From assembly GCF_025813715.1 (NCBI RefSeq), contig NZ_CP107532.1:1736001-1800000 (forward strand): DNA of 64,000 bases. The letters run 5' to 3'. Every line of letters begins with the position of its first letter. The first letter of the stretch is position 1. The notes beneath the pieces were generated by a model. That model was not told where the DNA came from, ran no database searches, and was given only the letters and a program-made list of their open reading frames with translations. The DNA comes from Methylobacterium sp. FF17 (lineage in GTDB: Bacteria; Pseudomonadota; Alphaproteobacteria; Rhizobiales; Beijerinckiaceae). Shown one piece after another: positions 536 to 61,355 of this stretch. Made by a program: the position numbers and the translations under genes.

Positions 536-982
536 TTACCAGAAACTCGGCTTCACCGCGGCCAGGATCACGATCAGGATCATGAGGAGCGTCGGCACCT
601 CGTTGATCACCCGGTAGAATTTATGGCCGCGCGTGTTCCGGTCGGCGGCGAAGTCCCGGACCATCCGGGCGAGCCAGCCGTGGATGCCGCTCATGGCCAG
701 CACCAGGACGAACTTCGCCTGGAGCCAGCCGGCGGCGTAGTACCCGCTCATCCAGGCCAGGATCAGCCCGAACACCCAGGTGGCGATCATCGCAGGCGTC
801 ATGATCGCCTTGAGCAGGCGCCGCTCCATGACCTTGAAGGTCTCGGACTGGGCCGCCGCGTGCGGACCCGGCACCAGGGAGGCGTGATAGACGAACAGGC
901 GGGGCAGGTAGAGCATCGCCGCCATCCAGGAGATGAGGGCGACGAGATGCCCGGCCTTGAGCCAGGGGTAGAGGCTGTCCAA
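536..982 (-). CDS. hemJ: HemJ, protoporphyrinogen IX oxidase (UPF0093)
   Basis: A 148-residue integral membrane protein with about four hydrophobic helices. It opens with LDSLYPWLKAGHLVALISWMAAMLYLPRLFVYH, where the conserved His residues of helices 1-2 are present. HemJ oxidises protoporphyrinogen IX to protoporphyrin IX in the inner membrane, the step before ferrochelatase. I chose a TTG start (980-982), which sits 5 bases past the hemE stop (987-989), because the upstream ATG would lie well inside hemE and add residues unlike the family. Neighbouring hemE (same strand, upstream) and hemH (5 kb away) support a heme role. The family is clear; the start is less certain. Confidence 0.87.
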   Translation of the reverse strand: MDSLYPWLKAGHLVALISWMAAMLYLPRLFVYHASLVPGPHAAAQSETFKVMERRLLKAIMTPAMIATWVFGLILAWMSGYYAAGWLQAKFVLVLAMSGIHGWLARMVRDFAADRNTRGHKFYRVINEVPTLLMILIVILAAVKPSFW

Positions 983-986
983 GGGG

Positions 987-2132
987 TCAGCCCCGCAGGC
1001 GCGCGAGCATGCGCTCGACATGGGCGATCGGCGTCTGTGGGGTGATGCCGTGGCCGAGGTTGAAGATGTGCGGCAGGCCCTCGGTGGCCGCGAGCACCCC
1101 GTCGACCGCCGCGTCGAGGGCGGCGCCCCCCGCGATCAGGGTCTCGGGATGGACGTTGCCCTGCGTCACCGTGGTGGCGGGCACCCGGTCGCGCAGGGCT
1201 TTCAGATCCACCGACCAGTCGACGCCGACCGCGTCGGCCGCCGTCTCCGGCACCACGCGGGCATGGCCGTCGAGGCCCGAACCCCGCGCGAACACGATGA
1301 TCCGCGCCCCCGGCACGCGGGCGCGCACCCCGGCGATCATCCGGGCAATGGGCTGGAGCGACCAGCGGGTCAGGGCGTCGCGCTCCGCGGGTTCAGGCAG
1401 CGCGCTCTCGGCGACCTCGTTGACGGCCTGCTCGGAGGGCTCGTCGGCGCCGCGCGCGTCGGGGAGCGAGCCCGCATGGGACTCGAAGATCTGCACCGCG
1501 TCCGCCCCGGCCTCGAGCTGGCGCACGAGGTACTCGGTCTGCACCGTGACGAGGCGGTCGATCAGCGCCTCCACCAGGGCGGTGTCCTGCCGGGCCAGGG
1601 CGCGGGAGGGTGCGAGGTCGGGCGTGCCGCGCCCGCCGATCATGTAGCTCGCCACCGTCCAGGGCGCGCCGCAGAAGCCGAGCAGCGTGGTCTCGTGGGG
1701 GAGTTCTGCCCGCAGGCGCCGCACCGTCTCGAAGACGGGCTCCAGGTGCGTGAAGATCGCCGGATCGCCGGCCTCGCGCAGGCGCTCGAATTCCGCCCGG
1801 CCCGCCATCGGGTTGAGGCGCGGCCCCTCCCCTTCCACGAAGCGCACGTCCTGGCCCAGCGCGTCCGGGATCACGAGGATGTCGGAGAACAGGATCGAGG
1901 CCTCGAAGCCGAAGCGCCGGATCGGCTGAAGCGTCACCTCGGTGGCGAAGTCCGGGTTGTAGCAGAGGTCGAGGAAGGAGCCCGCCTTGGCGCGGACCTC
2001 CCGGTACTCGGGAAGGTAGCGCCCGGCCTGCCGCATCATCCAGGCGGGGGGACGGGCTTGCGCCTCGCCCGCGAGAACCCGCAGGACCGTACGGTCCCGT
2101 GAAGGATCCCGGCTCGCAACACCCTGGCTCAT
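987..2132 (-). CDS. hemE: Uroporphyrinogen decarboxylase
   Basis: The product is 381 residues, the usual length for HemE. It removes four acetate carboxyls from uroporphyrinogen III to give coproporphyrinogen III in the cytosol. The two family signatures are present: RPPAWMMRQAGRYLPEY at residues 27-43 and the GFCGAPWTVASYM segment in the middle. The start ATG (2130-2132) has a GGGAGA ribosome-binding site 4 bases upstream; an upstream in-frame extension to about 2270 lacks family similarity and runs into the putative origin. The gene reads away from that origin and is followed within a few bases by hemJ, so the two are probably co-transcribed. Confidence 0.97.
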   Translation of the reverse strand: MSQGVASRDPSRDRTVLRVLAGEAQARPPAWMMRQAGRYLPEYREVRAKAGSFLDLCYNPDFATEVTLQPIRRFGFEASILFSDILVIPDALGQDVRFVEGEGPRLNPMAGRAEFERLREAGDPAIFTHLEPVFETVRRLRAELPHETTLLGFCGAPWTVASYMIGGRGTPDLAPSRALARQDTALVEALIDRLVTVQTEYLVRQLEAGADAVQIFESHAGSLPDARGADEPSEQAVNEVAESALPEPAERDALTRWSLQPIARMIAGVRARVPGARIIVFARGSGLDGHARVVPETAADAVGVDWSVDLKALRDRVPATTVTQGNVHPETLIAGGAALDAAVDGVLAATEGLPHIFNLGHGITPQTPIAHVERMLARLRG

Positions 2133-2280
2133 CCGATCTCCCGACGTCCCGTTCCCTGAGGCCGGTATGTAGCACCGAAGCCCCGGATGTCTGCCTCCCG
2201 AAACAGGTCCGCCGTTCGAAAACCCTTCGTCCGGTCCGGTGCCGGATCGGCGCGCGGCCTTCATCCCCACACCGGCCTTC

Positions 2281-2323
2281 TAAAAGGAAAGAAAGATTCT
2301 AGGACTCTGTTTTTTCTTTTTAG
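2281..2323. other. AT-rich tract, candidate DNA unwinding element
   Basis: A 43-bp stretch of about 70% A+T, with a purine-rich left half (TAAAAGGAAAGAAAGATTC) and a T-run right half. It sits on the hemE side of the CtrA box and the DnaA-box-like sites. It is the most AT-rich block in the hemE-PPSR gap and the natural candidate for the strand-opening site of the origin. It also contains two GANTC sites (2295-2299 and just before 2307). Confidence 0.55.
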
Positions 2324-2379
2324 GGGGGTCCGATGCGGGAGCAAAAAACCGTCCACAGGGCGTCCCCGCCGCCACGACG

Positions 2380-2394
2380 TTAAGCAGGCTTTAA
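2380..2394. promoter_or_regulatory. CtrA box, TTAA-N7-TTAA
   Basis: TTAAGCAGGCTTTAA is a perfect match to the CtrA full-site consensus TTAA-N7-TTAA. In Caulobacter, CtrA sites in the origin repress replication initiation and control the adjacent hemE promoter. The position inside the hemE-PPSR gap matches that arrangement. Binding here is inferred. Confidence 0.65.
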
Positions 2395-2582
2395 TGGATT
2401 GGGTCCAATGTCCCCGATAGGCGATGGGATACAGTGCCTTGCGTGCGCCTGCCGGGCTCGGCGCGCCCATCGGTCCCGGATTCTCCCAAAACCGCGCCGG
2501 AACGGCGCCGGTCGGCGCGCGTGTTGACGCCAGAGTCGACAAGTCGGGGCGGACATCCGCTGGACCCTCAAGCGAAGCCGGC

Positions 2583-2601
2583 TTATCCACCCTTATCGAC
2601 T
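2583..2601 (+). promoter_or_regulatory. Tandem DnaA-box-like sites
   Basis: TTATCCACC (2583-2591) matches the DnaA consensus TTATCCACA at 8 of 9 positions. TTATCGACT (2593-2601) follows one helical turn later and overlaps a GANTC site (2598-2602). Similar 9-mers on the other strand lie at 2534-2542 and 2618-2626, making a four-site cluster over about 90 bp upstream of the PPSR gene. Confidence 0.55.
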
Positions 2602-2672
2602 CCCCTGACCGTGCCCCGGTGGACAAGGCCGCGACCGGTCTGGCCCGCGAGGCCGGAGGAGACTGCCTCTCG

Positions 2673-3503
2673 ATGAGCCGTAGCTATTTCCATCTGCACC
2701 TCGTCTCGGATTCCACCGGCGAGACGCTCATCAACGTCGGCCGCGCGGCCGCCGCCCAGTACGAGGGGGTCTCGGCCATCGAGCACGTCTATCCCCTGGT
2801 GCGCTCCGGGCCGCAGCTGGAGCGGGTGATCTCCGAGATCGAGGCGGCGCCCGGCCTCGTGCTCTACACCCTGGTGGGGCACGACCTCACCGAGCGGCTG
2901 GAGGCGGCCTGCCGGGAGACCGGCTCGCCCTGCCTCTCGGTGCTCCAGCCCGTGCACGCCCTGCTGCAATCCTATCTCGGCGCGGATTCGACCGCCCGGC
3001 CGGGCGCGCAGCACATGCTCAACGCGGAGTACTTCAAGCGCATCGACGCGATGAACTTCACGCTGCTGCACGACGACGGCAACCTGCCGCCCGACGTGAA
3101 CGAGGCCGACGTCATCCTCATCGGCGTCAGTCGCACCTCGAAGACGCCCACCGCGATCTATCTCGCCAATCGCGGCCTGAAGACCGCGAACTTTCCCCTG
3201 GTGCCCGGCATGCCGCTGCCGGAAAGCCTGGAGACCGCGCGAAAGCCCCTCCTCGTCGGCCTGCTCGCCAGCCCCGAGCGCATCGTGCAGATCCGCCAGA
3301 ACCGGCTCCTCAGCCTGAAGGCGGACGATTCCTCCCTTTATGTCGATCGCAGCGCGGTGGCCGACGAGATCGCCGCCTGCCGACGGCTCTGCGCCAAGCA
3401 CCGCTGGCCGACCATCGACGTCACCCGCCGCTCCATCGAGGAGACGGCGGCCGCCATCGTCGACCTGCATCGCGAGCACCGCCTCAAGTTCATCGCCTCC
3501 TGA
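2673..3503 (+). CDS. Pyruvate,phosphate dikinase regulatory protein (PPSR/PDRP, DUF299)
   Basis: The 276-residue product is a bifunctional ADP-dependent kinase and Pi-dependent phosphorylase that switches pyruvate,phosphate dikinase (or PEP synthase) off and on by threonine phosphorylation. It begins [17 protein letters not shown], typical of the family, and carries the P-loop-like motif [10 protein letters not shown] at residues 151-160. The ATG at 2673 has GGAGGAG 12 bases upstream; a longer in-frame reading to about 2424 is low-complexity and lies in the putative origin. Its homologue flanks the origin in many alphaproteobacteria. maf follows 15 bases downstream. Confidence 0.95.
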
Positions 3504-3518
3504 AAACCGGGGCTCCCC

Positions 3519-4136
3519 ATGACCACCATTCTCTGGCGCGGGGCCCGGCCCCTCCTCCTCGCCTCCACCAGCCCGACCCGGCGCGGCCTCCTCGAAGGGG
3601 CGGGGTTCTCGGTCGAGACCGCGGCGCCGGGGGTGGACGAGCGCGCGGTGGAGGCGGCCTGCGCCGGGCTGGTGCCCGAAGCCCTGGCCGAACGCCTGGC
3701 GGAGGCGAAGGCCGGTGCCGTCGCCGCGCGGCATTCCGATCGCGTCGTCATCGGCGCGGATCAGGTGCTCGCCTGCGAGGGCACGCTGTTCCACAAGCCG
3801 GCGGACCTCGCCTCGGCCCGCGACCAGATCGCCGCCCTCGCCGGGCGCACCCACGCCCTGCATGCGGCGGTTTCCCTCGCCATCGACGGCAGCATCGTCG
3901 AGACCTTCGTGGAGACGGCGCACCTCACGATGCGGCGGCTCGATGCGCGCCAGATCGCGGCCTACGTGGCGCTCGCGGGTGCCGACAAGGTCCGGGCCAG
4001 CGTCGGCGGCTATCAGCTCGAAGGCCTCGGCATCCACCTGTTCTCGGAGATCGCGGGCGACCATTCGACCATCCTCGGCCTGCCGCTGCTGCCGCTCCTG
4101 GCCCGGCTGCGGGACCGGGGGCTCCTCGGCTTCTGA
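3519..4136 (+). CDS. maf: Maf-family nucleoside triphosphate pyrophosphatase
   Basis: The 205-residue product belongs to the Maf/YhdE/YceF family, which hydrolyses dTTP, UTP or modified NTPs to the monophosphate and pyrophosphate as a house-cleaning step. The substrate loop LLASTSPTRRGLL (residues 13-25) and the catalytic Asp in VIGADQVL (D81) are present, and the C-terminal YQLEGLGIHLFSEIAGDHSTILGLPL block is typical. It follows PPSR with a short gap, so the two likely form one transcript reading away from the putative origin. Which Maf subfamily it belongs to is not settled by the sequence. Confidence 0.93.
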   Translation: MTTILWRGARPLLLASTSPTRRGLLEGAGFSVETAAPGVDERAVEAACAGLVPEALAERLAEAKAGAVAARHSDRVVIGADQVLACEGTLFHKPADLASARDQIAALAGRTHALHAAVSLAIDGSIVETFVETAHLTMRRLDARQIAAYVALAGADKVRASVGGYQLEGLGIHLFSEIAGDHSTILGLPLLPLLARLRDRGLLGF

Positions 4137-16714: not shown

Positions 16715-16898
16715 GCGCGCCGCGGCGGGACGCGAACGAAGCCGTGGACCCCCAATGGGACGCCACCCCCGCAGGCCGTCCGCGACGCGCCCGGCGCAGG
16801 TGTCGCGCGGCTGTCCGGCTTGTGGATAACTCCGTTCATCCCCATCTATCGGAGACGCGGGGCGTCGTCCTTGACGCCAACGAAACGTTAAGATTAAT

Positions 16899-17530: not shown

Positions 17531-18613
17531 ATGGCGCAGAGCCCGACCCCGGCCCGTTCCCCTTCGCGCAAGGGGTTGTTCCTCCCCTACATCCTGCTCG
17601 GCACTCTGGTGGTCGCGTGGTCCGCCGGGTGGTTCTACATCCGTCATCGGGCCGCCTCCGAGATGGATGCCTGGCTCGCGCGGGAGCAGGCCGCCGGGCG
17701 GACCTGGACCTGCGCCGACCGCTCCATCACCGGCTATCCCTTCCGGATCGAGCTGCGCTGCGCCGCCCTAGCCTTCGCGCGCACCGACAGCCGCTTCACC
17801 CTCGGGCCGGTGACGGCGGTGGTGCAGGTCTATCAGCCGCGCCAGGGCATCCTGGAAGTCGGCGGCCCGTTCCACGTGGAACAGGGCGACCTCACGGCGG
17901 ATGCGGACTGGACCGCCCTGAAGGGAAGCTTCCACGGCGCGTCGGACGGTTTCGTCCGGGCCTCCCTGGTGGCCGACGGTGCAAAGGGCAGCGTGCACGG
18001 CGCGGGCGAGGCGCCGATCGCGTTCGCGACCCAGCACCTCGAACTTCATGCCCGTCCGACGCCGGGCCGCTTCGAATCGGACGGCGCCGTCGATACCAGC
18101 CTCCGGGTGACCCGGATCCAGCTCCCGCTGGCCGATGCGGCGCTCGGCAACACCGATCCGGCCGATCTCGCACTGGACACCACGATCAATCGCGCCACCA
18201 CCCTGCAGACCGGTCCGGTGGCCCAGGAACTCGACGCGTGGCGCCAGGCGGGCGGAAGCCTCAACCTCACGCTCCTGTCGTTGGCCAAGGGTGAGCGCCG
18301 ATTGCAGGCGAAGGGCTCCCTCGACCTCGACGCCGCGCATCGGCCCCAGGGTCAGCTCGAACTGCGCGCGGCCGGCGTCGAGGCCCTGGTCGCCCAGGTG
18401 ATGGGCCAGCGCTTCGGGGCCGAGAAGGGGGCGCTCCTCGGCAATCTCGTCGGGCAGTTGCTGAACCGGCGCAACCCGGCCGGCGCCGAGGGGAGCGCGC
18501 CGGCGCAGGGCGACGCCGCCCTGAAGGCGCTGCCGCCGCTGCGCCTCGCCGAGGGACGCCTGATGCTCGGCCCGTTCCCGATCCCGAGCGTGCAACTCCC
18601 CCCGCTCTACTGA
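17531..18613 (+). CDS. DUF2125 domain protein, membrane-anchored
   Basis: A 360-residue protein with one N-terminal transmembrane segment (FLPYILLGTLVVAWSAGWFYI) and a large periplasmic domain typical of DUF2125, including TCADRSITGYPFRIELRC near residue 70. The function of the family is not established; its beta-rich repeats suggest an envelope role. I prefer the ATG at 17531 (MAQSPTPARSP) because the 21 codons upstream look non-coding. A parS-like palindrome lies within the coding sequence at 17868-17883 (encoding F-H-V-E). It ends 13 bp from the convergent tyrC gene. Confidence 0.85.
   Translation: MAQSPTPARSPSRKGLFLPYILLGTLVVAWSAGWFYIRHRAASEMDAWLAREQAAGRTWTCADRSITGYPFRIELRCAALAFARTDSRFTLGPVTAVVQVYQPRQGILEVGGPFHVEQGDLTADADWTALKGSFHGASDGFVRASLVADGAKGSVHGAGEAPIAFATQHLELHARPTPGRFESDGAVDTSLRVTRIQLPLADAALGNTDPADLALDTTINRATTLQTGPVAQELDAWRQAGGSLNLTLLSLAKGERRLQAKGSLDLDAAHRPQGQLELRAAGVEALVAQVMGQRFGAEKGALLGNLVGQLLNRRNPAGAEGSAPAQGDAALKALPPLRLAEGRLMLGPFPIPSVQLPPLY
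17868..17883. other. parS-like palindrome inside the DUF2125 gene
   Basis: CGTTCCACGTGGAACA contains the perfect 14-bp palindrome GTTCCACGTGGAAC and matches the bacterial parS consensus TGTTTCACGTGGAACA at 14 of 16 positions. It is about 15 kb from the putative origin and 30 kb from parAB. Binding of ParB is inferred only. Confidence 0.45.
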
Positions 18614-39315: not shown

Positions 39316-39795
39316 GGCGTTCTGTCCTCTCGCTGGGTCTTCGGGCGCCGGAGGAGCGATGCCGTGCCTGAACGGTGGCTCGGCTCCGACAGCGCGTCCG
39401 GGCCGGTCGCGCGAGCCGCGACGATGCGACCGCCCGGCCGACGCGCAAGCGCGCTATCATGCCCGTCCGGGCGGAACAAGCAGAGGTGTGCGGCGGCCCG
39501 GGACGTCCCCGACCGGTGGGCGCCTGCCTGGAACCCGCGCGCGAAATGCCCCATATCCTTTTCGCGACCCGAAGAATTCCCGATCTGAGGACTTCTCCAC
39601 GCGAGGACATCAAGCCATCCCGCCCTTGCCCTCACGACGAACCGGCTCGATCCTTCAGCGGCTCTCCGTTAAAGCGCGGGAAGATCGAGCGTCTCGGCCG
39701 GATGGTCCGGTCGGGTCTCCCGGGCAGGCGGTTCGGCCGGGTTTCGGGACCCCTTGGAACACCATATTCGTGCGACGGCCACGATCGGATCAGTG
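39316..39795. promoter_or_regulatory. Divergent intergenic region secB / Tim44-like gene
   Basis: 480 bp with no gene I can support: open frames here are long only because of GC content and show no family resemblance. It should hold the promoters for secB (left) and the Tim44-like gene (right). The stretch from about 39545 to 39640 (CCATATCCTTTTCGCG ... GAATTCCC) is locally AT-richer. No palindromic operator stands out. Confidence 0.4.
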
Positions 39796-42669: not shown

Positions 42670-44010
42670 ATGACGTCACAGTACGATGCCCTTCCCGTGG
42701 ACGAGTCGGCCGAGGGCGGAATCGTCGCCGCCGACCTTGATGCCGTGCGCGAGGTCAAGCTCCAGGACCTCAAGTCCAAGACGCCGACCGACCTGATCGC
42801 CTTCGCCGAGGAGGTCGAGGTCGAGAACGCCTCGACCATGCGCAAGCAGGAACTGATGTTCGCCATCCTGAAGCAGCTCGCTGCCAAGGAAGTCGAGATC
42901 ATCGGCGCCGGCACCGTCGAGGTCCTGCAGGACGGCTTCGGCTTCCTGCGCTCCTCCGATTCGAACTACCTGCCGGGCCCGGACGACATCTACATCTCGC
43001 CGACGCAGATCCGCCGCTTCGGCCTGCGCACCGGCGATACCGTCGAGGGCCCCATCCGGGGACCGAAGGACGGCGAGCGCTACTTCGCCCTGCTCAAGGT
43101 GAACACGATCAACTTCGAGAACCCGGAGAAGATCAAGCACAAGGTTCACTTCGACAACCTGACGCCGCTGTTCCCGACGCAGCGCTTCAAGCTCGAGCTC
43201 GACAATCCGCCGAAAAAGGATTTTTCGCCCCGGATCATCGATATCGTCGCCCCCATCGGCAAGGGCCAGCGCGCCCTGATCGTGGCGCCGCCGCGCACGG
43301 GTAAGACCGTACTGATGCAGAACATCGCCCAGTCGATCACCATCAACCACCCGGAATGCTACCTCATCGTGCTGCTCATCGACGAGCGCCCCGAGGAAGT
43401 GACCGACATGATCCGCTCGGTGAAGGGCGAGGTCATCGCCTCCACCTTCGACGAGCCGGCTACCCGCCACGTCCAGGTCGCCGAGATGGTGATCGAGAAG
43501 GCCAAGCGCCTCGTGGAGCATGGCCGCGACGTGGTCATCCTGCTCGACTCGATCACCCGCCTCGGCCGCGCCTACAACACGGTGGTGCCGTCGTCCGGCA
43601 AGGTGCTGACGGGCGGTGTCGACGCCAACGCGCTGCAGCGCCCGAAGCGCTTCTTCGGTGCCGCCCGCAACATCGAGGAGGGCGGCTCGCTCTCGATCAT
43701 CGCCACCGCGCTCATCGATACGGGCTCGCGCATGGACGAGGTGATCTTCGAGGAGTTCAAGGGCACCGGTAACTCGGAAATCATCCTGGACCGCAAGGTT
43801 TCGGACAAGCGCATCTTTCCGGCCATCGACATCACCCGCTCCGGAACCCGCAAGGAAGAGCTGCTGGTGCCGCCGGATTCCCTCAAGAAGACCTATGTGC
43901 TCCGCCGCATCCTCAACCCGATGGGCGTCACCGACGCCATCGAGTTCCTCATGGACAAGCTGCGCCAGACCAAGAGCAACAACGACTTCTTCGATTCGAT
44001 GAACACCTGA
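42670..44010 (+). CDS. rho: Transcription termination factor Rho
   Basis: A 446-residue hexameric RNA-dependent ATPase that ends transcription. The N-terminal Rho_N and cold-shock RNA-binding parts ([27 protein letters not shown]) precede the P-loop [13 protein letters not shown], Walker [17 protein letters not shown] and the Q/R loops ([30 protein letters not shown]). Full length and intact. The 276-bp leader carries a hairpin (42490). It opens the conserved rho-mnmE-mnmG-rsmG-parAB series. Confidence 0.98.
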
Positions 44011-44280
44011 GACCGGATCCGCTCGGTCGAAGCGGACGCTGTTCCGTCAGGCCCGAGCGACGTTTCGGTGAAGTTTCGATTGGGGTTGCGTTCGGTGGCG
44101 ATGCGGGCAACGGCTCGTGTCGCCACTCTCGTTTCGAGCGTGGGTCCATCACGTCGCGGGCTCGGCTCGAACGCCCATCGGGCACGCTCGCAACTATCTA
44201 TTTTCCAAGAATAATAAAATAATTCGCCGGCTTAACAAGGCGCGGGGCCGTGCGTCAGGACCTCTCTCGGAGCCGATCGG

Positions 44281-45627
44281 ATGTCGAACGCGAGTACCAT
44301 CTACGCGCCGGCCACCGGCTTCGGGCGCGCCGCCATCAGCGTGATCCGGATCAGTGGACCGGCATCGGCGGATGTGCTCGGACGCCTGACGGGTGCCCTC
44401 CCCCCACCGCGTCGCCTGTCCCTGCGGACCTTGCGAAACACGGACGGCGATGTGCTGGATCAGGCCCTGGTCGCCTGGATGCCCGGCCCTGGAACGGTCA
44501 CGGGCGAGGACATGGCGGAGCTTCATCTCCATGGCGGCCTGGCCGTGCGCAGCGCCGTTCTCGGGGCGCTCGCAACCGTGCCCGGCTGCGAGCCCGCGCA
44601 ACCCGGCGCCTTCACCCGTCGCGCCTTCCTGAACGGCCGCCTCGATCTCACGGAGGCGGAGGGCATTGCCGACCTGATCGATGCCGAGACCGAGGCGCAA
44701 CGGCGCCAAGCCCTGCGCCAGCTCGACGGCGCTCTCGGGCGCCAGGTCGCCGATTGGCGCACGCGGCTCATCGATCTGCTGGCCGGGGTCGAAGCGGCCC
44801 TCGACTTTTCCGACGAGGGCGATGTGGACGAGGCGGCCCTCGACGCAGCCCTGACCGCGAAGGCCGCTCTCCTGCGGGATGAGATCGCCCGCACCCTGGC
44901 GGATGGGCGGCGCGGCGAGCGCCTGCGCGAAGGGTTCGTGGTGGTGCTGGCGGGCGCCCCGAACGCCGGGAAGTCCACCCTGCTCAACGCCCTGTCCCGT
45001 CGCGATGCGGCAATCGTCTCGGCGATCCCAGGGACGACCCGGGACGTCATCGAGGTCCGCTGCGATCTCGGTGGGCTACCCGTCATCCTCGTCGATACGG
45101 CTGGCTTGCGGGACGCCGGCGATCCGATCGAGGCGGAGGGCATTCGGCGCACGCGCGTCCGCATGGAACAGGCCGATCTGATCCTGTTGCTGCGTGCGCC
45201 GGATGAGGCGGGAAACGCGGCCTCGCACACGGACGAGACTGATCTGCACGTGCCGGCGGGGGTGCCGACACTCACGATCCGGACGAAGCAGGATGTCGTC
45301 GCCTCAGGCGCGGAGGCCGAGGATCAGACCGCACTGCGGATCTCGGCACTGACCGGTCTCGGGCTCGATCGCCTTCTCGGCCGCATCGAGGCACAGGCGG
45401 CCGAAGCGGTCGGGGGCGGGAGCGCACTGATCACCCGGGAGCGGCATCGCCTCGGTCTGGCCCGGTGCCGCGATCACCTCGACCGCCTGCTCGCGGGAAG
45501 CGCCTTGCCAGAGCTCGCGGCCGAGGATCTTCGCCTCGCGGTGCGTGCACTCGGCGAGGTCGCCGGCATGGTCGGTGTCGAGGAATTGCTGGATCGCTTG
45601 TTCTCGGGCTTCTGCATCGGCAAATGA
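44281..45627 (+). CDS. mnmE: tRNA modification GTPase MnmE
   Basis: A 448-residue GTPase that with MnmG installs the cmnm5 group on wobble U34. The N-terminal tetrahydrofolate-binding domain leads, followed by G1 GAPNAGKST (225-233), G2 TTRD, G3 DTAG; the G4 motif reads TKQD in place of NKxD, with a Thr substituted for the base-contacting Asn. The C-terminal FCIGK (C-x-G-K) is conserved. The 270-bp leader contains an AT-rich stretch (about 44198-44232) likely holding the promoter. Confidence 0.96.
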
Positions 45628-45714
45628 TCCGACGGGGCGGGTCGATAGCCGGACGTCTCGGCAGCGCAGTCCTGACGGCAGGAAGGCTGTGTTGCCGGCA
45701 CCGCACAAGCGTCT

Positions 45715-45730
45715 TGTTTCACGTGGAAAC
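45715..45730. other. parS-like site between mnmE and mnmG
   Basis: TGTTTCACGTGGAAAC matches the parS consensus TGTTTCACGTGGAACA at the first 14 positions. It lies in the mnmE-mnmG gap, 2 kb before a second strong site and 3.5 kb before parB. parS sites next to parAB are the rule in this class. Confidence 0.75.
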
Positions 45731-45787
45731 ACCCTTCTTCAGCGCCCCTGCGTTGACCGGCCCCATCACGCCCGCGTAACTGGAACC

Positions 45788-47671
45788 ATGCATCACGATC
45801 CTGATTCCTTCGACGTGATCGTCGTTGGCGGAGGCCATGCGGGCGTCGAGGCGGCCGCGGCCGCAGCCCGCATGGGTGCCCGCACGGCTCTGGTGACCCA
45901 TCGGGCCTCGACCATCGGCGCCATGTCCTGCAACCCGGCGATCGGCGGCCTCGGGAAGGGCCACCTCGTGCGCGAGGTGGATGCCCTCGACGGCCTCATG
46001 GGGCGCGTCGCCGATGCGGCCGGGATTCAGTTCCGTCTCCTCAACCGCCGCAAGGGACCGGCGGTCCGGGGCCCCCGGACGCAGGCCGACCGCAAGCTCT
46101 ACGCCCGCGCCATGCAGGACGCCATCGCCGAGACCGCGAACCTGCGGGTGATCGAGGGCGAAGTGGCGGATCTCGCGGTGAGCGCTGGCCGCGTCGCCGC
46201 CGTCGTCCTGGGAGATGGCACCACCCTCCCCTGCGCCGCCGTGGTTCTGACCACGGGCACGTTCCTGCGCGGGCTGATCCATATCGGAGAGACCCAGGTT
46301 CCGGCGGGACGCGTCGGCGAGGACCCGTCCATCGGTCTCGCCCATACCCTCGACCGCTACGGCTTCGCCCTCGGGCGCCTGAAGACCGGCACCCCGGCCC
46401 GCCTCGACGGCCGCACCATCGACCGGTCCGGCCTCGACATGCAGTCGGCCGACGATGAGCCGGTCCCCTTCTCGACCCTCACCGAGCGCATCACCAACCC
46501 GCAGATCCAATGCGGTGTCACGCGCACCACCCAGGCCGTGCACGACCTGATCCGCGCCAACCTCCATCGCTCGCCGATGTATTCGGGCGGTATCGCGAGC
46601 CGAGGTCCGCGCTACTGCCCCTCCATCGAGGACAAGGTGGTGCGGTTCGGCGACCGCGAGGGCCACCAGATCTTCCTCGAGCCGGAGGGGCTGGACGATC
46701 CGACAGTCTATCCGAACGGGATCTCGACCGCCCTTCCCGAAAGCGTCCAGCGCGACATCATCGCGTTGATCCCGGGCCTGGAGCGGGCTGCGATCCTGCG
46801 CCCCGGCTACGCCATCGAGTACGACTACGTCGATCCGCGCGAACTCGACGCGACCCTGCAGACGAAGCGCCTGCCGGGACTGTTCCTAGCGGGGCAGATC
46901 AACGGGACGACGGGATACGAGGAAGCGGCCGGGCAGGGCCTCGTCGCCGGGATCAACGCGGCGCGGCTCGCCGGCGGGTCCGCCCTCGCGGTGTTCGATC
47001 GCGCGGAATCCTATCTCGGCGTCATGATCGACGATCTGGTGACCCATGGGGTGAGCGAGCCCTACCGGATGTTCACCTCGCGCTCGGAGTACCGGCTGTC
47101 CCTGCGCATCGACAACGCCGACGAGCGCCTGACACCGCGCGGCGCGGCACTGGGCTGCGTCGGCCCCGTACGGGCGTCGCACTTCGCGGCCTCGCAGGCG
47201 GCGCTGGAGGCGACACGGTCCCGTCTCGACGCCCTGAGCCTGACGCCGAACGAGGCCCGGGCCGTGGGGCTCGACCTCAACCAGGATGGCCTGCGGCGCA
47301 GCGCCTTCCAGCTGCTCTCCTATCCCGACATCGGCTGGGACCGCCTCGCGGCGATCTGGCCCGAGCTTGCCGCGGTCGCGCCCCGCGTCGCGGAACGCCT
47401 CTGCACGGACGCGACCTACGCCGTCTACCTCGACCGGCAGCGCGCGGATATTGCCGCCTTCCGCCGGGACGAGGCCGTGGCGCTCTCGGACCGTCTCGAC
47501 TACGCGGCGATCCCCGGGCTCTCGAACGAGATGCGGGCGAAGCTCGAGATCGTCCGGCCCGGGACCCTGGGGCAGGCGGCCCGCATCGAGGGCGTGACAC
47601 CGGCCGCCCTCACCCTGCTCGCGGCGCATGCCCGGCGCCGTCATCGGGAGCCGGTGGCGCATGCCCGCTGA
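45788..47671 (+). CDS. mnmG: tRNA uridine-5-carboxymethylaminomethyl modification enzyme MnmG
   Basis: A 627-residue FAD enzyme, partner of MnmE. The N-terminal dinucleotide site is [16 protein letters not shown], followed by [36 protein letters not shown] and the two catalytic Cys (SIEDKVVRF context and the [16 protein letters not shown] block, with Cys in RYCPSIEDK and the later CGV). Length and motif order are normal. It is followed by rsmG, whose ATG overlaps its stop region. Confidence 0.97.
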
Positions 47672-48299
47672 ACCGGACCGGGATCGTGTGCTGGCGGAGG
47701 CCGGTGTTTCACGTGAAACCGCCCGACGCCTCGCCATCTACGTGGCGCAGCTTCGACGCTGGCAGAACGTGAAGAACCTCGTCGGACCCGGCACCCTGGC
47801 CGAGGTTTGGACCCGCCACATCGCCGATGCCCTTCAGCTCCGGGCCCTGGCACCCGAAGCCGACACCTGGCTCGACCTCGGAGCCGGCGCCGGCCTGCCG
47901 GGCCTCGTCCTGGCGATCGCCGGACATGAGCGCCCCGGGTTTCAAGTCGACATGATCGAGAGCAATGCCCGCAAATGCGCCTTCCTGACGGAGACGGCGC
48001 GTCTCACGGAGGCGCCGGCGCGGGTGCACAATGCCCGTATCGAGCAGGCCATCGATGGGCACCAGGGCGTTGGCATCGTCTGTGCTCGCGCGCTGGCACC
48101 CCTCACCCAGCTTCTCGCCTGGTGTGAGCCACTGCTGACGACGGGCACCATCGGCCTGTTCCCGAAGGGCCGGGACGTGCAATCGGAATTGACCGACGCT
48201 GCGCAACGGTGGAGGTTCGTTTACGATCTTGAGCCGAGCCGAACCGATTCGGAAGCGCGGATCGTCCGCGTCACGACCCTATCTCGCGTGGATTCATGA
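47661..48299 (+). CDS. rsmG: 16S rRNA (guanine527-N7) methyltransferase RsmG
   Basis: A 212-residue methyltransferase. Motif I is [47 protein letters not shown] and the [15 protein letters not shown] block are diagnostic. The ATG at 47661 overlaps the mnmG stop; its own stop overlaps the parA start by 4 bases. A strong parS-like site lies within its 5' coding region (47705-47720), encoding V-S-R-E-T. Confidence 0.95.
47705..47720. other. parS-like site inside rsmG
   Basis: TGTTTCACGTGAAACC differs from the palindromic parS consensus TGTTTCACGTGAAACA only at the last base. It overlaps rsmG codons for V-S-R-E-T and is 1.5 kb from parB. It is the best parS match in the window. Confidence 0.85.
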
Positions 48300-49144
48300 C
48301 AAGCGATCCGACGAAAATCCCCGCCGCCGGAGGCAACCCGGAGCGGCCGCTGCGTATCCTGGCGTTGGCCAACCAGAAGGGCGGCGTCGGCAAGACCACG
48401 ACGGCGATCAATCTCGGCACCGCCCTGGCCGCGATCGGTGAAACCGTCCTGGTGATCGATCTCGATCCGCAGGGCAACGCCTCCACGGGGCTCGGCATCG
48501 ACCGGCGCCAGCGCAAGGTGTCGACCTACCACGTCCTCGCCGGAGAGGCGTCCCTGGCGGAGGCCTGCATCCCGACGGCGGTGCCGCGCCTGCTGGTGGC
48601 CCCCTCCACCATGGACCTGCTCGGCCTCGAGCTGGAGATGGCGAGCGCGCCGGACCGGGCCCACCGCCTGCGCAACGTACTGAAGGGGATCGGTCAATCC
48701 GGAGCGACCGAAGGCGTGACCTACGTCCTGATCGATTGCCCGCCCTCCCTCAACCTCCTCACCATCAATGCCCTGGCGGCCTCGGACGCGGTGCTGGTGC
48801 CGCTGCAATGCGAGTTCTTCGCCCTGGAGGGCCTGAGCCAGCTCCTGCGCACCGTGGAGCAGGTGCGCGGCGCCCTCAATGCCCGCCTCACCATCCAGGG
48901 CATCGTGCTGACGATGTTCGATCCGCGCAACAACCTGTCGGCGCAGGTGGTGGCGGATGTGCGCAGCTTCATGGGCGAGAAGGTTTACGAGACCATGATC
49001 CCCCGCAACGTGCGCGTGTCGGAGGCCCCGTCCCACGGCAAGCCGGTGCTGCTCTATGACCTCAAATGCGCGGGTTCGCAGGCCTATCTGCGTCTGGCCT
49101 CGGAGATCATCCAGCGCGAGGGGCGGCTGCCGGTGGCGGCCTGA
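48296..49144 (+). CDS. parA: Chromosome partitioning ATPase ParA (Soj)
   Basis: A 282-residue Walker-type ATPase that moves the ParB-parS complex of the newly replicated origin. Deviant Walker A KGGVGKTT at 28-35 and the VIDLDPQGNAS and VLIDCPPSLNLL motifs are intact. The ATG overlaps the rsmG stop; parB follows after 71 bp. It is the chromosomal rather than plasmid type by context. Confidence 0.97.
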   Translation: MTSDPTKIPAAGGNPERPLRILALANQKGGVGKTTTAINLGTALAAIGETVLVIDLDPQGNASTGLGIDRRQRKVSTYHVLAGEASLAEACIPTAVPRLLVAPSTMDLLGLELEMASAPDRAHRLRNVLKGIGQSGATEGVTYVLIDCPPSLNLLTINALAASDAVLVPLQCEFFALEGLSQLLRTVEQVRGALNARLTIQGIVLTMFDPRNNLSAQVVADVRSFMGEKVYETMIPRNVRVSEAPSHGKPVLLYDLKCAGSQAYLRLASEIIQREGRLPVAA

Positions 49145-49215
49145 GATTTGACCGGAGGGGCACCCTGCTCCCCGGGACGAGCGTGAAACGGATTCGGGAG
49201 TCGAAGCAGGTGGCG

Positions 49216-50115
49216 ATGGCGGATGATGTGGTGCGACCCCGGCTCGGACGTGGCCTCGCGGCCCTGATCGGTGATTTCGGCGATGATACGCCCGAGGCCG
49301 GCAAGTCCCAGGCGCAGCGCAAGGTCGCCGTCGAGTTCCTGCGGCCGAACCCGCGCAACCCGCGCCGCCGCTTCAACGAGGCGGACCTCGACGAACTCTC
49401 GGCCTCGATCAAGCTGCGCGGCATCATCCAGCCCATCGTGGTGCGGGCCCTTCCCGGTGTTCCGGACACCTACGAGATCGTCGCGGGCGAGCGCCGCTGG
49501 CGCGCGGCCCAGCGCGCCGGCCTCACCGAAGTGCCGGTGGTTACCGTGGAGATCGACGACCGGACCTCGCTCGAATTCGCGATCCTGGAGAATGTCCAGC
49601 GCACGGACCTCAACGCGATCGAGGAAGCGGCCGGCTATGAGCGCCTGATGAGCGAGTTCCAGTACAGCCAGAGCGAGCTGGCCGAGATCCTGGGTAAGAG
49701 CCGCAGTCACCTCGCCAACACCCTGCGCCTGTTGCAGCTGTCGCCGTCGATCCAGGACCGGGTCGTGGCCGGCGAGATCACGGCGGGTCACGCGCGCGCA
49801 TTGCTGGCGGTGCGGGACGCCGAAGGCGTCGCGCGCCGGATCGTGGAGGAGGGGCTCTCGGTCCGCGAGGTCGAGGCCCTCGCCTCGGCGGAGGTGCCGG
49901 AGGGCGATGGCCCCCGCCCCGGCCGGCCGCGCCGCGCGGCCGAGAAGGATGCCGAGATCCGCTCCCTGGAGCAGGCCATGGCCCGCGCCCTGGGAATGAA
50001 CGTCGCGTTGAAATCCAAGGTCGCGGGAGCCGGAGAAATCCGCATCCGCTATGAGACCCCCGCCGAACTCGACGCCCTCTGCCAGCGCTTCAACATCGCG
50101 CGGTCCGAGGGGTAG
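49216..50115 (+). CDS. parB: Chromosome partitioning protein ParB
   Basis: A 299-residue CTPase/DNA-binding protein that loads at parS and spreads along DNA. The RPRLGRGLAALIGD N-terminus interacts with ParA; VEFLRPNPRNPRRRFNEADLDELSASIKLRGIIQPIVV is the ParB/Srx fold with GERRWRAAQRAG as the CTP-binding GERRxR motif; the helix-turn-helix KSRSHLANTLRLLQL and a C-terminal dimer domain follow. An in-frame GTG at 49210 is an alternative start. It converges on holA with a 3-bp gap. Confidence 0.96.
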   Translation: MADDVVRPRLGRGLAALIGDFGDDTPEAGKSQAQRKVAVEFLRPNPRNPRRRFNEADLDELSASIKLRGIIQPIVVRALPGVPDTYEIVAGERRWRAAQRAGLTEVPVVTVEIDDRTSLEFAILENVQRTDLNAIEEAAGYERLMSEFQYSQSELAEILGKSRSHLANTLRLLQLSPSIQDRVVAGEITAGHARALLAVRDAEGVARRIVEEGLSVREVEALASAEVPEGDGPRPGRPRRAAEKDAEIRSLEQAMARALGMNVALKSKVAGAGEIRIRYETPAELDALCQRFNIARSEG

Positions 50116-50118
50116 GCC

Positions 50119-51147
50119 TCAGCGCCGCCGCGCGGCCTCGGAGGCGATGCGCAGGAGCGTGCTCGAGGCCTGCGCATGCGCCAATCCGGGATCGGAGCGG
50201 CGGCAGGTCAGGACCGCGTCCTGGAGCAGCTGAACCGCGTGGCGGAGGGCAGGGGGAGACCAGCGGGCAAGCTGCGTCTCCACCAGCGCCTTGCGCCGGA
50301 AGTGCAGGCCGCGCCAGTTCGCCACCATGGCGCCGGCACTCTGTCCCTCCCCCGCGATACGGGTCGCGAGCAGGGTCAGGGCGTGGCGCAGGGCGGCGCC
50401 CAGCATCACCGAGGGGTCCATGCCCTCGTGGCGGAAGCGCCGGTAATCGCGCTCCACCTCGCCGATGCGGCCGGCAAAAGCCGCGTCGATCAGCGTGTTG
50501 AGCACACTGCCCGCGACATCGCTGACGATCGCTTCCACATCGTCCAGGCTGACGGTGCCCTGCCCCTGGGCATAGAGCGACAGCTTCTCGATCTCCGACA
50601 GGCTCGCGCCCCGGTCGCCGCCGAGACTCGCCGCGAGGATGTCGCGGGCGTCCCGCGCGATGCGCAGGCCCTGGTCCTGCAGCGTGCGGTCGATGATGTC
50701 GGCGAGCGCCCGCTCGTCGTCGGGATAGCAGGGTAGGGCGAGGGCCTTGGGGGATTTCTCGCAGAGGGTCCGCAAGGGAGCGGTCTTGCCGAGGTCGCCA
50801 CCTTCCACGACGATGCGCGCCTGGGTGATCTCGGCCTTCAGGGCGGCCTCCACGGCCGGCGCGTAGTTGCGACTGCCCGCGCGCACCCAGATCGTGCGGT
50901 TGCCCCCGAACAGGCCGACGGTGCCGGCCTCGTCCACCAGGCGCCCAGGATCCTGCGCCAGCACGTCGCCGTCGATCTTCACCATGGCGAAGGGGTCGCC
51001 CGGATCCGCCACGAAGGCCTCCGCTAGCGCCTTGGCCCGGTGGAAGACGAGCCCGGTATCCGGCCCGTAGACGAGCAGGATCGCGATGCGCGGATCGGGG
51101 CCGCGCCGGATCAGGCCATCGACGTCGCCGGCCTTGACGGCGGTCAT
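50119..51147 (-). CDS. holA: DNA polymerase III subunit delta
   Basis: A 342-residue clamp-loader subunit that opens the beta sliding clamp. LLVYGPDTGLVFHRAKALAEAF and DEAGTVGLFGGNRTIWVRAG in the N-terminal domain and the DVEAIVSDVAGSVLNTLIDAAFAG linker are recognisable. Preceded by lptE and leuS on the same strand with short gaps, the usual alphaproteobacterial order. Confidence 0.93.
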   Translation of the reverse strand: MTAVKAGDVDGLIRRGPDPRIAILLVYGPDTGLVFHRAKALAEAFVADPGDPFAMVKIDGDVLAQDPGRLVDEAGTVGLFGGNRTIWVRAGSRNYAPAVEAALKAEITQARIVVEGGDLGKTAPLRTLCEKSPKALALPCYPDDERALADIIDRTLQDQGLRIARDARDILAASLGGDRGASLSEIEKLSLYAQGQGTVSLDDVEAIVSDVAGSVLNTLIDAAFAGRIGEVERDYRRFRHEGMDPSVMLGAALRHALTLLATRIAGEGQSAGAMVANWRGLHFRRKALVETQLARWSPPALRHAVQLLQDAVLTCRRSDPGLAHAQASSTLLRIASEAARRR

Positions 51148-51166
51148 GCCGGGGTCCCCGACGTCG

Positions 51167-51748
51167 TCAGGGCTTGGTCACCAGCACGGAGGCGATCCGG
51201 GTCTTGATCTGCTCGGCCAGCACCTTGGCGAGGCGAATCTCGGCGTCGCGGGCGGCGCGCAAGCTGGCGAAGCGCTGGATCGAACGGTCATACGTCGCCG
51301 TCGAGGTGGCGACACCCTCGCTGATGATCTTCGTGCCGCTCAGGTCCTCCAGGGCGTACTTGATCGTGCCGACGATCGTGCCCGCTTCGGCGCGCCCGGT
51401 CAGCGAGGACACGATCGGGGTCTGCACCGTCTCGCTCCCCTGCATCTTGAGCCGATAGCGCTTGGGCGCGCTCTGGCCCGATCCGTCGAGGTCGAAGATC
51501 AGTTCGCTGCGCAGGTAGTGCCCGAGGCGCTCCTGGCCCTGCGCCATCAGCACGTCGTCCACCTGCACCGCGGCGAGCAACGCCGCCATCGGCTCACCGG
51601 AGGCGGTGGGGCCGTAGAGGGGGCGGAAGCAGGCCGAGAGGTTGAGGGCGAGCGACGAGACGAGGGCGACGCGCGCCGCCCGACGCAGGGTTCCGCCCGC
51701 TGCCGCTCCGAGTGCCAAACGCATCATGCCCGCCGCCGTCCCGCTCAT
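51167..51748 (-). CDS. lptE: LPS-assembly lipoprotein LptE
   Basis: A 193-residue outer-membrane lipoprotein that plugs the LptD barrel. The lipobox is LNLSAC followed by FRPLYGPTASGEPM. The start at 51746-51748 has a GGCGGAA site; two later Met codons (51727 and 51724) are alternatives, whereas a TTG further upstream seems unlikely. It lies between leuS and holA, the common gene order, which strengthens the assignment. Confidence 0.85.
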   Translation of the reverse strand: MSGTAAGMMRLALGAAAGGTLRRAARVALVSSLALNLSACFRPLYGPTASGEPMAALLAAVQVDDVLMAQGQERLGHYLRSELIFDLDGSGQSAPKRYRLKMQGSETVQTPIVSSLTGRAEAGTIVGTIKYALEDLSGTKIISEGVATSTATYDRSIQRFASLRAARDAEIRLAKVLAEQIKTRIASVLVTKP

Positions 51749-51848
51749 CCGTTCCGCCCGATCTGTACGGCGAACCGAGGTCCGACGACAGCCTATTCGC
51801 CCCAAGCTTTACGTTTCCTATCCGGCCACGGTCGGAGCCGGATCGGGG

Positions 51849-54455
51849 TCAGACGACGAGGTTCACGATCCGGCCCGGCACGACGATGACCTTCTTCGGG
51901 GTTCGCCCTTCGAGGGCCCGCTGTACGGCCTCGTCTGCGAGGACCAGGGCCTGGACCGCCGCGACATCGGCGCTGCGGGGGACGGTCACGTCCGCACGCT
52001 TCTTGCCGTTGAGCTGGACGGGGAGGGTGACCTCGTCCTCGACCAGCAGGCCGCGCTCGACCTCCGGCCAGCCCGCCTGCGCGGCCAGACCGTCGCGGCC
52101 GAGCGCCCGCCAGCACTCCTCCGCGAGGTGCGGCATCATCGGGGCGATCAACTGCGTGAGGATGCCGGCCGCTTCCGTCGCGGCGCTCCGGGAGACGCCG
52201 CCCCGCAGGCCCTCGTCGAGGGCGTTGGCCAGCGTGTAGGTATGCGCGACGCAGCGGTTGAAGCGCAGGCGTTCGATATCCTCCTCCACCGACGCAAGGG
52301 CCTTGTGCGCGGCCTTGCGTAGGGCGGCGTCGCCGCTGCCCGCGCTGCCCTCCGACGCGGCCGCGAGGGACACCAGCCGCCAGACGCGCTGGACGAAGCG
52401 CGCCGCGCCCTGCACGCCGTCCTCGGTCCAGATCACGTCGCGCTCGGGCGGCGAATCGGAGAGCATGAACCAGCGGGCGGTATCGGCGCCGTAGCTCGCG
52501 ATGATGTCGTCGGGGTCGACCACGTTCTTCTTCGACTTCGACATCTTCTCGATGGGGCCGATCGCGATCGGCTCCGCTGTTTTCACGTGGAACGCCTGAC
52601 GCGCACCGGCCTCGCCCGTGATGCGGATGTCGGCCGGGGGCACCCAGGCGCCGGCCGCATCCTTGTAGGTCTCGTGCACCACCATCCCCTGCGTGAACAG
52701 GCCGGCGAAGGGCTCGGAGACGCCGGACCAGTCCGTCGCCTTCATCGCCCGCATGAAGAAGCGGGCGTAGAGCAGGTGCAGGATCGCGTGCTCGATACCG
52801 CCGATATACTGGTCGACGGCGAGCCACTGGTCGACGGCCTTGCGGTCCGTGGGCGCGTCCTGGAGCCAGGGCGCTGTGAAGCGCGCATAGTACCAGGACG
52901 AATCCACGAAGGTGTCCATGGTGTCGGTTTCGCGCCGGGCCGGCTTCCCGCAGGTGGGGCAGGGGACGTTGCGCCAGGCGTGGTCGCGCTCCAGCGGATT
53001 GCCGGGCACGTCGAAGGAGACCTCGTCCGGCAGCTTCACCGGCAGGTCGGCCACCGGCACCGGCACGGGCCCGCAGGCCTCGCAATGGATGATCGGGATC
53101 GGGCAGCCCCAGTAGCGCTGGCGCGAGACGCCCCAGTCGCGCAGGCGGAACTGCACCTTCCGCGAGGCCACCGCGGTGCCGGACAGGGTCTCGGCTTCGA
53201 GGCGGTTGGCCACCGCCTTGAAGGCCTCGTCCGTGGTCATGTCGTCGAGGAAGCGGGAATTGATCATCCGGCCGTCGCCGTCATAGGCGGTGTCGGTGAC
53301 GACGAAGCTGCCGGCGTCCTGGTCTTCCGGGCAGACCACGGGCGTGTTGCCGAGACCGTACTTGTTGGCAAAATCGAGGTCGCGCTGGTCGTGGGCCGGG
53401 CATCCGAAGACCGCGCCGGTGCCGTAGTCCATCAGCACGAAGTTCGCGACGTAGACCGGCAGCAGCCAGGACGGGTCGAGGGGATGGCGGACCTTCAGCC
53501 CGGTGTCGAAGCCAAGCTTCTCGGCCGTGTCGATGGCGGCCTGGGCCGTACCCGTGCGCCGGCATTCCTCGATGAAGGTCTGGAGGGCCGGATGGGCGGG
53601 TGCGAGCTTCGCCGCGATCGGGTGATCGGCGGCGATCGCCAGGAACTTCGCGCCGAACAGGGTGTCGGGCCGCGTGGTGTAGACCGTCACCTCGGGGGCG
53701 ACGCCGTGGGGCGGTGCCTCGATGGCGAAGCGGACCTCGAGCCCCTCCGAGCGGCCGATCCAGTTCTTCTGCATCAGCCGGACTTTTTCCGGCCAGCGCT
53801 CCAGGCCGTCCAGCGCATCGTAGAGGTCCTGCGCGAAATCGGTGATCTTGAAGAACCACTGGGTCAGCTCGCGCTGCTCCACCAGGGCGCCCGAGCGCCA
53901 GCCGCGCCCGTCGATGACCTGCTCGTTGGCGAGCACGGTGTGATCCACCGGGTCCCAGTTCACCTTGGCCGTGCGGCGCGTCACCAGCCCCTTGGCCAGG
54001 AAGTCGAGGAACATGCGCTGCTGGTGCTTGTAATAGTCGGGGTCGCAGGTCGCGATCTCCCGGCTCCAGTCCAGCGAGAGGCCCATGCTCTGCAACTGGC
54101 CGCGCATCGTCGCGATGTTGGCGTAGGTCCAGTCGCGCGGGTTGACCTTGCGCTCCATGGCGGCGTTCTCGGCGGGCAGACCGAAGGCGTCCCAGCCCAT
54201 CGGGTGCAGCACGTTGAAGCCGCGCGCCCGCTTGTAGCGCGCCACCACGTCGCCCATCGCGTAGTTGCGCACGTGGCCCATGTGGATGCGCCCCGACGGA
54301 TAGGGGAACATCTCCAGCACGTAGTATTTCGGCCGGGGATCGTCGTTCTTCGTGGCGTAGATGCCCGCCGCGTCCCAGGCCTGCTGCCAGCGCGGCTCGG
54401 TCTCCTTGGCGTTGTAGCGCTCGGGAGCGGGACTTTGAGCGGGGGACGTGGTCAT
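51849..54455 (-). CDS. leuS: Leucyl-tRNA synthetase
   Basis: An 868-residue class I synthetase. The HIGH motif reads [21 protein letters not shown] is in [15 protein letters not shown], and the editing-domain threonine-rich motif [21 protein letters not shown] is intact. Start ATG at 54453-54455. A weak parS-like site falls within the coding sequence (52579-52594; A-F-H-V-K). It heads the leuS-lptE-holA run and is divergent from the yggS gene. Confidence 0.98.
52579..52594. other. parS-like site inside leuS
   Basis: GTTTTCACGTGGAACG keeps the 13-base core TTTCACGTGGAAC of parS, but the two outer left positions and the last base differ (13 of 16). It lies 2.5 kb past parB. ParB binding is inferred. 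Confidence 0.4.
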
Positions 54456-60747: not shown

Positions 60748-61355
60748 TCGGGCTTCACGCTCGCAGTGCGCTTCCTCTCCCGAAAGAGAGGGGACCCGCG
60801 GCGTCGCCGAGAGCGACACAGCGTGGCGGGGCTTTCGATGCCCCTTGAGGCCCTGCCGCAACGGGGGCCGTCGTGGTCCGAACGCCGGATCTCGCCGGCC
60901 TTCACATCCGCGCTTGGGGAGAAGAGACCGATCGCCCCAGCACGAACCCAAATCCGTCCAGCACTGCTCTCCTCCCCCTTGCGGGAAGGAGCCGGAGGTG
61001 GGGGTGCGGCGCCTTACTTCGGACGTTGAGGCGCTCCTGGCGATCCGGTTCGGGGGACCTTGGGAGTGGCGCGCCGGCACCCCCACCCTGACCCTCCGGC
61101 AAGCCCAGGATGACCCAGCGTGGCAGGGCATTCGATGCCTCCAAGCGCCATAGGCGATCGCCCTACCTGTAAGGAGAGGGTGAGGGCGTGGTCCATCTCC
61201 GGAGAATCCAAATACCTCACCGGCCCCCAAAGGCGGGGAACCCGCACCAGAACCCGACCGATTCAGTCGAAAACAGCATGCTGCGGCTTCCGGTGCGGCC
61301 GGAGCGAACGCACCGCACGGGATTTCACGGGAAACAAGCCGCGCGGCCGGGCGGT
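60748..61355. repeat. Intergenic region with dispersed repeats
   Basis: 608 bp without a supportable gene. It contains a 23-bp element, AGCGTGGCRGGGCWTTCGATGCC, twice (60820-60842 and 61117-61139; 21 of 23 identical), and a GC-rich block at 60970-61006 resembling the one at 381-420. Open frames here are unlike known proteins. It looks like an accumulation of intergenic repeats between the lipocalin-like gene and the porin. Confidence 0.55.

Follow-up and report, generated by a model that had tools for sequence, protein, structure and literature searches.

A putative Caulobacter-type replication origin between hemE and PPSR in Methylobacterium, with KOPS-like polarity turning near the partition locus

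Introduction

Where does replication of a Methylobacterium chromosome begin? For the published chromosomes of M. extorquens AM1 and DM4, a site upstream of dnaA is reported to have been chosen as the start by convention, since the origin could not be read from GC skew (PMC2680597). Among the matches listed from the open-licence literature, titles and the opening lines of abstracts name neither a mapped Methylobacterium oriC nor a KOPS map of the genus. The question is raised anew by a 540-bp gap between divergent hemE and PPSR genes, which the initial annotation took for the probable replication start of the chromosome. The gap lies in the window analysed here, a 64-kb stretch of one Methylobacterium genome (G000:C1:1736001-1800000; assembly of 5.99 Mb in 7 contigs, C1 being 5,735,273 bp long). 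The origins of Caulobacter and Rickettsia are described as sitting between hemE and a gene of the same COG1806/DUF299 family (PMC1914354).

Results

Gene setting and motifs of the gap

The hemE and PPSR genes both score above their family cut-offs in Pfam and NCBIfam and diverge around a gap with a GC content of 0.644, in a window of ~0.71 (Table 1). The arrangement is stable among the best 80 of 331 relatives (Methylobacterium, Methylorubrum, a few MAGs and 7 Microvirga), whose named records have hemE and PPSR divergent in 79/80 loci and a hemJ-like gene beside hemE in 76/80. The PPSR proteins nearest among the matches listed, from Methylobacterium sp. J-068, Leaf104 and M. goesingense, are 99% identical to that of the window. 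Rfam and tRNA scans of the 64 kb gave no matches. Two features of the setting count against an origin at the gap. The dnaA gene lies at 3.79 Mb of C1, unlinked to the gap, and was dropped as an origin marker; and locus L209 (Methylorubrum podarium) has, around position 6001 and within the 6 kb of flank examined, PPSR without hemE and without the conserved core of the gap, which, if present in that genome, must sit elsewhere.

The motif content of the gap was judged against 2000 dinucleotide shuffles of its 540 bp. For 50-mer GC the AT-rich tract ranks second from the bottom in the window, after the place around 44188, and in relatives the lowest 40-mer per gap has a median GC of 0.30 and a maximum of 0.40 (79 gaps from the best 80 of 331). 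The full CtrA site has a shuffle P of 0.001. Four of the five TT[AG]TC[CG]AC words in the window fall in the gap, a number reached in 0/2000 shuffles, and the gap holds three TCCAC[AC] words, which 0.8% of shuffles attain. The gene context, AT-rich tract, DnaA-box-like words and CtrA box of the initial annotation are thus borne out. So is its GANTC cluster: five sites are unusual for the window, where 13 of 3173 sliding 540-bp windows reach five and the mean is 0.76 per 540 bp, but not for the gap's own composition, since 10.7% of its shuffles also reach five (P = 0.11), a result that weighs against an origin here. The description of the gap as the longest feature-dense non-coding region of the window could not be established, because simple ORF calling gives a longer gap of 608 bp at 60748-61355 (a further ORF-free gap, likewise ranked by length only, has 438 bp at 39316-39753).

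Neither the exact DnaA box TTATCCACA nor the G-box TGATCCACA occurs in the gap; the closest match to the former is TTATCCACC, and the missing exact box counts against an origin here. TCCCCA by itself, present in one copy, is not enriched (shuffle P 0.33). The only perfect TTATCCACA in the window is at 16821-16829, in a 184-bp gap ~14 kb from the proposed origin.

Table 1. Features of the 64-kb window (positions are those of the window)
Feature	Position	Strand	Basis or remark
hemJ-like gene (UPF0093), adjoins hemE	536..1021	-	PF03653
hemE, uroporphyrinogen decarboxylase; left border of putative origin	987..2132	-	PF01208, TIGR01464 above cut-off
Putative oriC = hemE/PPSR intergenic region	2133..2672	.	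DNA match in 36/36 congeners
W-box-like TCCCCA in conserved ATCCCCAC	2264..2269	+	W-box consensus TCCCCA as given in PMC4285127
AT-rich tract, candidate unwinding element, GC 0.34	2273..2322	.	Among lowest 50-mers of window; kept in alignment
Twin GANTC sites, GATTC-TAG-GACTC, inside AT-rich tract	2295..2307	.	
Conserved GTCCACAG, DnaA-like half box	2351..2358	+	
Full CtrA site TTAA-N7-TTAA (predicted)	2380..2394	.	Sole one in 64-kb window
Conserved GGTCCCGGATTCTCCC with GANTC site	2472..2487	+	
GAGTCGACAA: GANTC overlapping inverted DnaA-like 8-mer	2533..2542	.	
DnaA-box-like TTATCCACC, then TTATCGAC overlapping GANTC site	2583..2602	+	
Inverted DnaA-box-like TTGTCCACC	2618..2626	-	35 bp start to start from box at 2583
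PPSR (DUF299, kinase/pyrophosphorylase); right border of putative origin	2673..3503	+	PF03618, NF003742
Maf-like gene, adjoins PPSR	3519..4136	+	PF02545
Secondary parS-like palindrome CGTTCCACGTGGAACA	17868..17883	.	15 kb from gap
rho	42670..44010	+	TIGR00767
trmE/mnmE	44281..45627	+	NF003661, TIGR00450
ORF holding gidA/mnmG (domain from residue 89)	45545..47671	+	TIGR00136
Best-fit KOPS-like polarity turn	46224..46931 (C1:1782224-1782931)	.	2-lnL support 44396-52957
gidB/rsmG	47628..48299	+	TIGR00138
parS-like TGTTTCACGTGAAACC, at start of gidB	47705..47720	.	
parA	48296..49144	+	PF13614
parB	49216..50115	+	PF02195, PF17762

Conservation of the gap among relatives

A DNA search found the gap in 37/61 genomes, namely its own and all 36 congeners, and in 0/24 genomes of other families. 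Loci were cut for 30 of these 37 (own included) and aligned. Conserved blocks run from ATCCCCAC through the AT-rich tract with its GATTC-TAG-GACTC, GTCCACAG and GTTAA-N7-TTAA to CAG..CTTG, GGTCCCGGATTCTCCC, GAGTCGA, TATCCACA-TCATCGACTCC and GGTGGA. Columns at least 95% identical make up 24.4% of the gap (8 genomes). Their share is 6.6% in a rho-trmE slice that takes in 60 bp of rho and 20 bp of trmE (9 genomes), and 8.5% in a trmE-gidA slice with some coding bases (7 genomes).

The same elements persist in the wider sample of the best 80 of 331 relatives, where 75/540 columns reach 95% identity or more in an alignment of 80 sequences (the window and 79 gaps, 7 of the latter from Microvirga). 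Every one of the 79 gaps contains a full CtrA site, and none has fewer than five GANTC sites; [AG]TCCACA is found in 78, box 1 in 77, TCGACTC in 76, a twin GANTC (GANTC-N2..4-GANTC anywhere in the gap) in 75, GATTCTCC in 66, GAGTCGA in 62 and box 2 in 59. The Microvirga gaps keep the CtrA site, [AG]TCCACA and box 1 (7/7 each) and lack box 2 (0/7). These motifs are concentrated in the gaps of the 79 loci: full CtrA sites number 85 in 42 kb of gap versus 1 in 937 kb of flank, GANTC sites 552 versus 1499 (13.0 versus 1.60 per kb) and DnaA-like 9-mers 91 versus 75 (2.14 versus 0.08 per kb).

Two results on protein-binding motifs point the other way. A box within one mismatch of TTATCCACA, TGATCCACA or TTGTCCACA is absent from 7/30 aligned gaps (G005, G009, G016, G018, G025, G027 and G029), where the paired boxes read TCCCCA, given as the Caulobacter W-box consensus (PMC4285127). 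The IHF consensus WATCAANNNNTTR occurs in 1/79 gaps from the best 80 of 331 relatives, by a simple consensus that may not suit the genus. The inverted boxes at 2583-2626 tend to vary jointly by lineage, reading TCCAC in many genomes and TCCCC in a Methylorubrum-like group; G008, with one box of each kind, is an exception.

Might the gap be no more than a strongly conserved promoter region that CtrA and CcrM control, in a window that has no origin at all? Divergent genes need promoters, and CtrA and GANTC sites occur in cell-cycle promoters too. We nevertheless consider this very improbable, for the DnaA-like boxes, the AT-rich tract and conservation over ~365 bp (2262-2626) would exceed what a promoter pair requires, and parS sites and a turn of chromosome polarity lie in the same window (below). 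The Caulobacter origin, which was found experimentally, is moreover described as flanked by the same gene pair (PMC1914354).

Where chromosome polarity turns

The GC skew of C1 is weak and without a clear turn, which counts against an origin at the gap, and skew at four-fold sites hardly differs between the arms; both were discarded as too weak for origin placement. The same lack of GC skew is reported for M. extorquens (PMC2680597), and a GC-skew shift is listed as one of seven origin elements, not all of them required (PMC1914354). Polarity was instead read from octamers, by a fit of two breakpoints that ignored annotation and drew on the window and 60 stretches of C1, of which two overlapped and one was half masked. 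The most polar words were GGGGAGGG and GGGCAGGG, which belong to the KOPS family GGGNAGGG as it is described elsewhere (PMC6199493, PMC13342612). The fit places an origin-type turn at ~1.77-1.90 Mb and a terminus-type turn at ~4.5-4.9 Mb of the 5.735 Mb of C1, with a score of 4.47 against 3.56-3.69 in five permutations of segment order (on a coarser grid), and GGGGAGGG has strand counts of 57:4 in the right arm and 2:36 in the left arm of the sampled stretches. The sense of the polar words makes the 1.78-Mb turn the origin side, so that the window (1.736-1.800 Mb) is at the origin end of the chromosome, the turn lying within it or at most ~100 kb away. Some GGGGAGGG hits recur at a spacing of ~250 bp (G000:C1:30386, 549998, 888460, 897066, 1194823 and 2395513), which suggests short tandem repeats that carry the word and raise plus-strand KOPS counts.

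Within the window the best-fit turn falls inside gidA, adjoining the parS site at 47705 and ~44 kb to the right of the gap; from the gap to parS there are nine KOPS words, counted as +1 -8. No turn of strand asymmetry, a usual correlate of an origin, was found at the gap, GC skew being uninformative and the KOPS-like turn displaced. The GC-skew inversion that the initial annotation had proposed as a check placed no origin, and its warning that a turn elsewhere would speak against the gap applies in part, to KOPS-like polarity at ~46.2-46.9 kb and not to the unusable GC skew. The fit also prefers parS to the gap as the turning point, by 2.7-15.6 lnL units, in each of five genomes compared: the window's own (G000, -39.90 versus -45.62), G018 (-50.25 versus -60.25), G036 (-48.17 versus -63.77), G005 (-42.14 versus -53.65) and G008 (-13.20 versus -15.94). 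The gap is 90-426 kb from parA in the four relatives.

The parS site is not the exact turning point everywhere. That candidate fails in G018 and G005, whose best turns are ~10-12 kb from parS, upstream of trmE, with support intervals ~8-14 kb away on that side that exclude it; G009, G016 and G027 have mixed or plus-type words directly upstream of trmE. In genomes with a short interval, words in the sense expected with parS as the turn (r) and words scored F number 10 and 2 in G035, 2 and 1 in G030, 1 and 0 in G006, and 2 and 1 in G019, counts that are not independent because several of the words fall at corresponding sites of conserved genes. In the 6 kb next to the gap, the 73 non-Microvirga loci have KOPS words at +41 -76 towards hemE and at +76 -84 towards PPSR, a weak shift in the direction that a turn at the gap would give; the 7 Microvirga loci among the best 80 of 331 relatives (+1 -5 and +2 -10) have no turn.

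A single inversion was considered as the sole cause of the displaced turn. By our reasoning it can account for the arrangement of G005, G018 and G036, where the gap is downstream of parA, and fails for the window's genome, where the 42-kb interval should carry the other polarity and counts +1 -8; inversion may still be a partial cause. No dif site was found in 13 genomes with the E. coli-type consensus at up to three mismatches, so replichore balance could be judged only inexactly.

The partition locus and an origin near parS

A search at E 1e-60 gives a single parA match per genome in 14/14 genomes. In 13 genomes, own included, parA lies 19-426 kb from the gap (median 90 kb); both sides and both orientations occur. 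In all seven Microvirga among the best 80 of 331 relatives, rho stands on the hemE side of PPSR at a distance of 3.5-4.1 kb, and G055 has maf-PPSR-hemE-rho-trmE-gidB-parAB as one block. This block is broken in Methylobacterium genomes, which makes oriC-like and parS-like landmarks separable; the ancestral order persists in G016 and G027, with an interval of 85-97 kb. G008, G002 and G010 have further parS-like sites at 15-23 kb from the gap, a parS is found beside trmE in G002, G007 and G026, and G008 and G003 (L155, L156) carry parA-parB-gidB inverted with respect to trmE.

The main rival to our reading is that replication starts near parS and KOPS polarity marks the origin as usual: the origin would have moved to the rho-trmE-gidA-gidB-parAB block (42-52 kb), leaving the hemE/PPSR gap as a relic or a cell-cycle regulatory region. 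The turn at gidA/parS and its lnL advantage over the gap in 5/5 genomes agree with such a move, as does the AT-rich 50-mer of the rho-trmE gap (44188-44237, GC 0.32, the lowest of the window), although that 50-mer is unconserved in 9 genomes. Yet no conserved non-coding element was seen in the two gaps compared there, rho-trmE and trmE-gidA, with their few near-invariant columns, and from 42 to 52 kb the window has no full CtrA site and a single T[TG][AG]TCC[AC]C[AC] word, at 48996. Nor is the block compact in every relative, rho and trmE being ~19-20 kb apart in G005 and G018 and trmE and parA ~12-13 kb apart in G002, G007, G010 and G026. A dispensable relic, for its part, is unlikely to keep a CtrA site and at least five GANTC sites in all 79 gaps from the best 80 of 331 relatives. 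We regard a relocated origin as improbable, if less so than a gap that is promoter and nothing else.

Discussion

The hemE/PPSR gap is very probably the chromosomal oriC, of Caulobacter type, with the partition locus moved off and KOPS turning near the latter. Gene context, motif content and conservation all fit such an origin, a case that we consider well supported but unproven, and together with the position at the origin end of the chromosome they uphold the initial annotation's probable replication start. We place oriC at the gap because the sequence marks of an origin are there, with nothing comparable near parS in the window, and because the gap is within 426 kb of parA in 13/13 genomes, a range that other bacteria tolerate: P. 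aeruginosa is reported to accept parS in a zone of ~650 kb (~-200 to +450 kb from oriC), and Caulobacter a separation of 400 kb with no defect described (PMC5098823).

Position, motifs, conservation, gene context and origin-end location are shown by the sequence data; from them we infer protein binding and firing as follows. DnaA would bind the inverted pair TTATCCAC[AC] / TT[AG]TCCACC near PPSR together with the weak TCCCCA/TCCACA boxes spread over the gap, unwind the AT-rich tract (2273-2322) and load the helicase. Phosphorylated CtrA on the site at 2380 would keep the origin from firing, and methylation of the GANTC cluster by CcrM, with the twin in the AT-rich tract among its targets, would tie firing to the cell cycle. 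Rearrangement would have shifted parS and parAB away, with KOPS-like polarity turning at or near the partition locus instead of at oriC.

With oriC at the gap, the displaced KOPS turn would either go back to past inversions or indicate that KOPS follow a segregation axis from parS to dif. We put forward only tentatively, and think somewhat doubtful, the broader proposal that oriC and parS-parAB have drifted up to 426 kb apart in Methylobacterium and Methylorubrum while KOPS polarity has the centromere, not oriC, as its centre. If it is true, KOPS arms record the axis of segregation, and elsewhere the usual 'ori-to-dif' rule owes its validity solely to parS adjoining oriC. Since many of its members have the oriC candidate at a great distance from parS, the genus is a natural setting in which to ask whether chromosome polarity is set by replication or by partition. 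The conserved, motif-rich hemE/PPSR element gives the genus a concrete oriC candidate, and GGGGAGGG and GGGCAGGG a usable polarity signal where GC skew fails.

The closest known system is Cori of Caulobacter crescentus, which is described as likewise lying between hemE and the COG1806/DUF299 gene, with an AT-rich region, DnaA boxes including the weak TCCCCA type and CtrA sites of the form TTAA-N7-TTAA (PMC1914354, PMC4285127). The gap differs from Cori in having one full CtrA site, as against the five reported there, no G-box, an IHF consensus absent from 78/79 gaps (best 80 of 331 relatives), and five GANTC sites with a twin inside the AT-rich tract. Cori is also within ~8 kb of parS, whereas the parAB-linked parS is 45 kb off here, with a secondary parS-like site at 15 kb, and parA is 19-426 kb away in 13 genomes. 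The hemE/COG1806 origin of Rickettsia prowazekii has the same flanking genes (PMC1914354), a likeness drawn from gene context only. For the displaced turn the nearest parallel is Pseudomonas aeruginosa PAO1-UW, in which segregation is uncoupled from replication: KOPS and skew polarity are reported to depart from the replication map and to turn at dif instead of the replication terminus (PMC6199493). The displaced end in Methylobacterium is instead the origin end, with its turn near parS, so that PAO1-UW presents the mirror case at the terminus.
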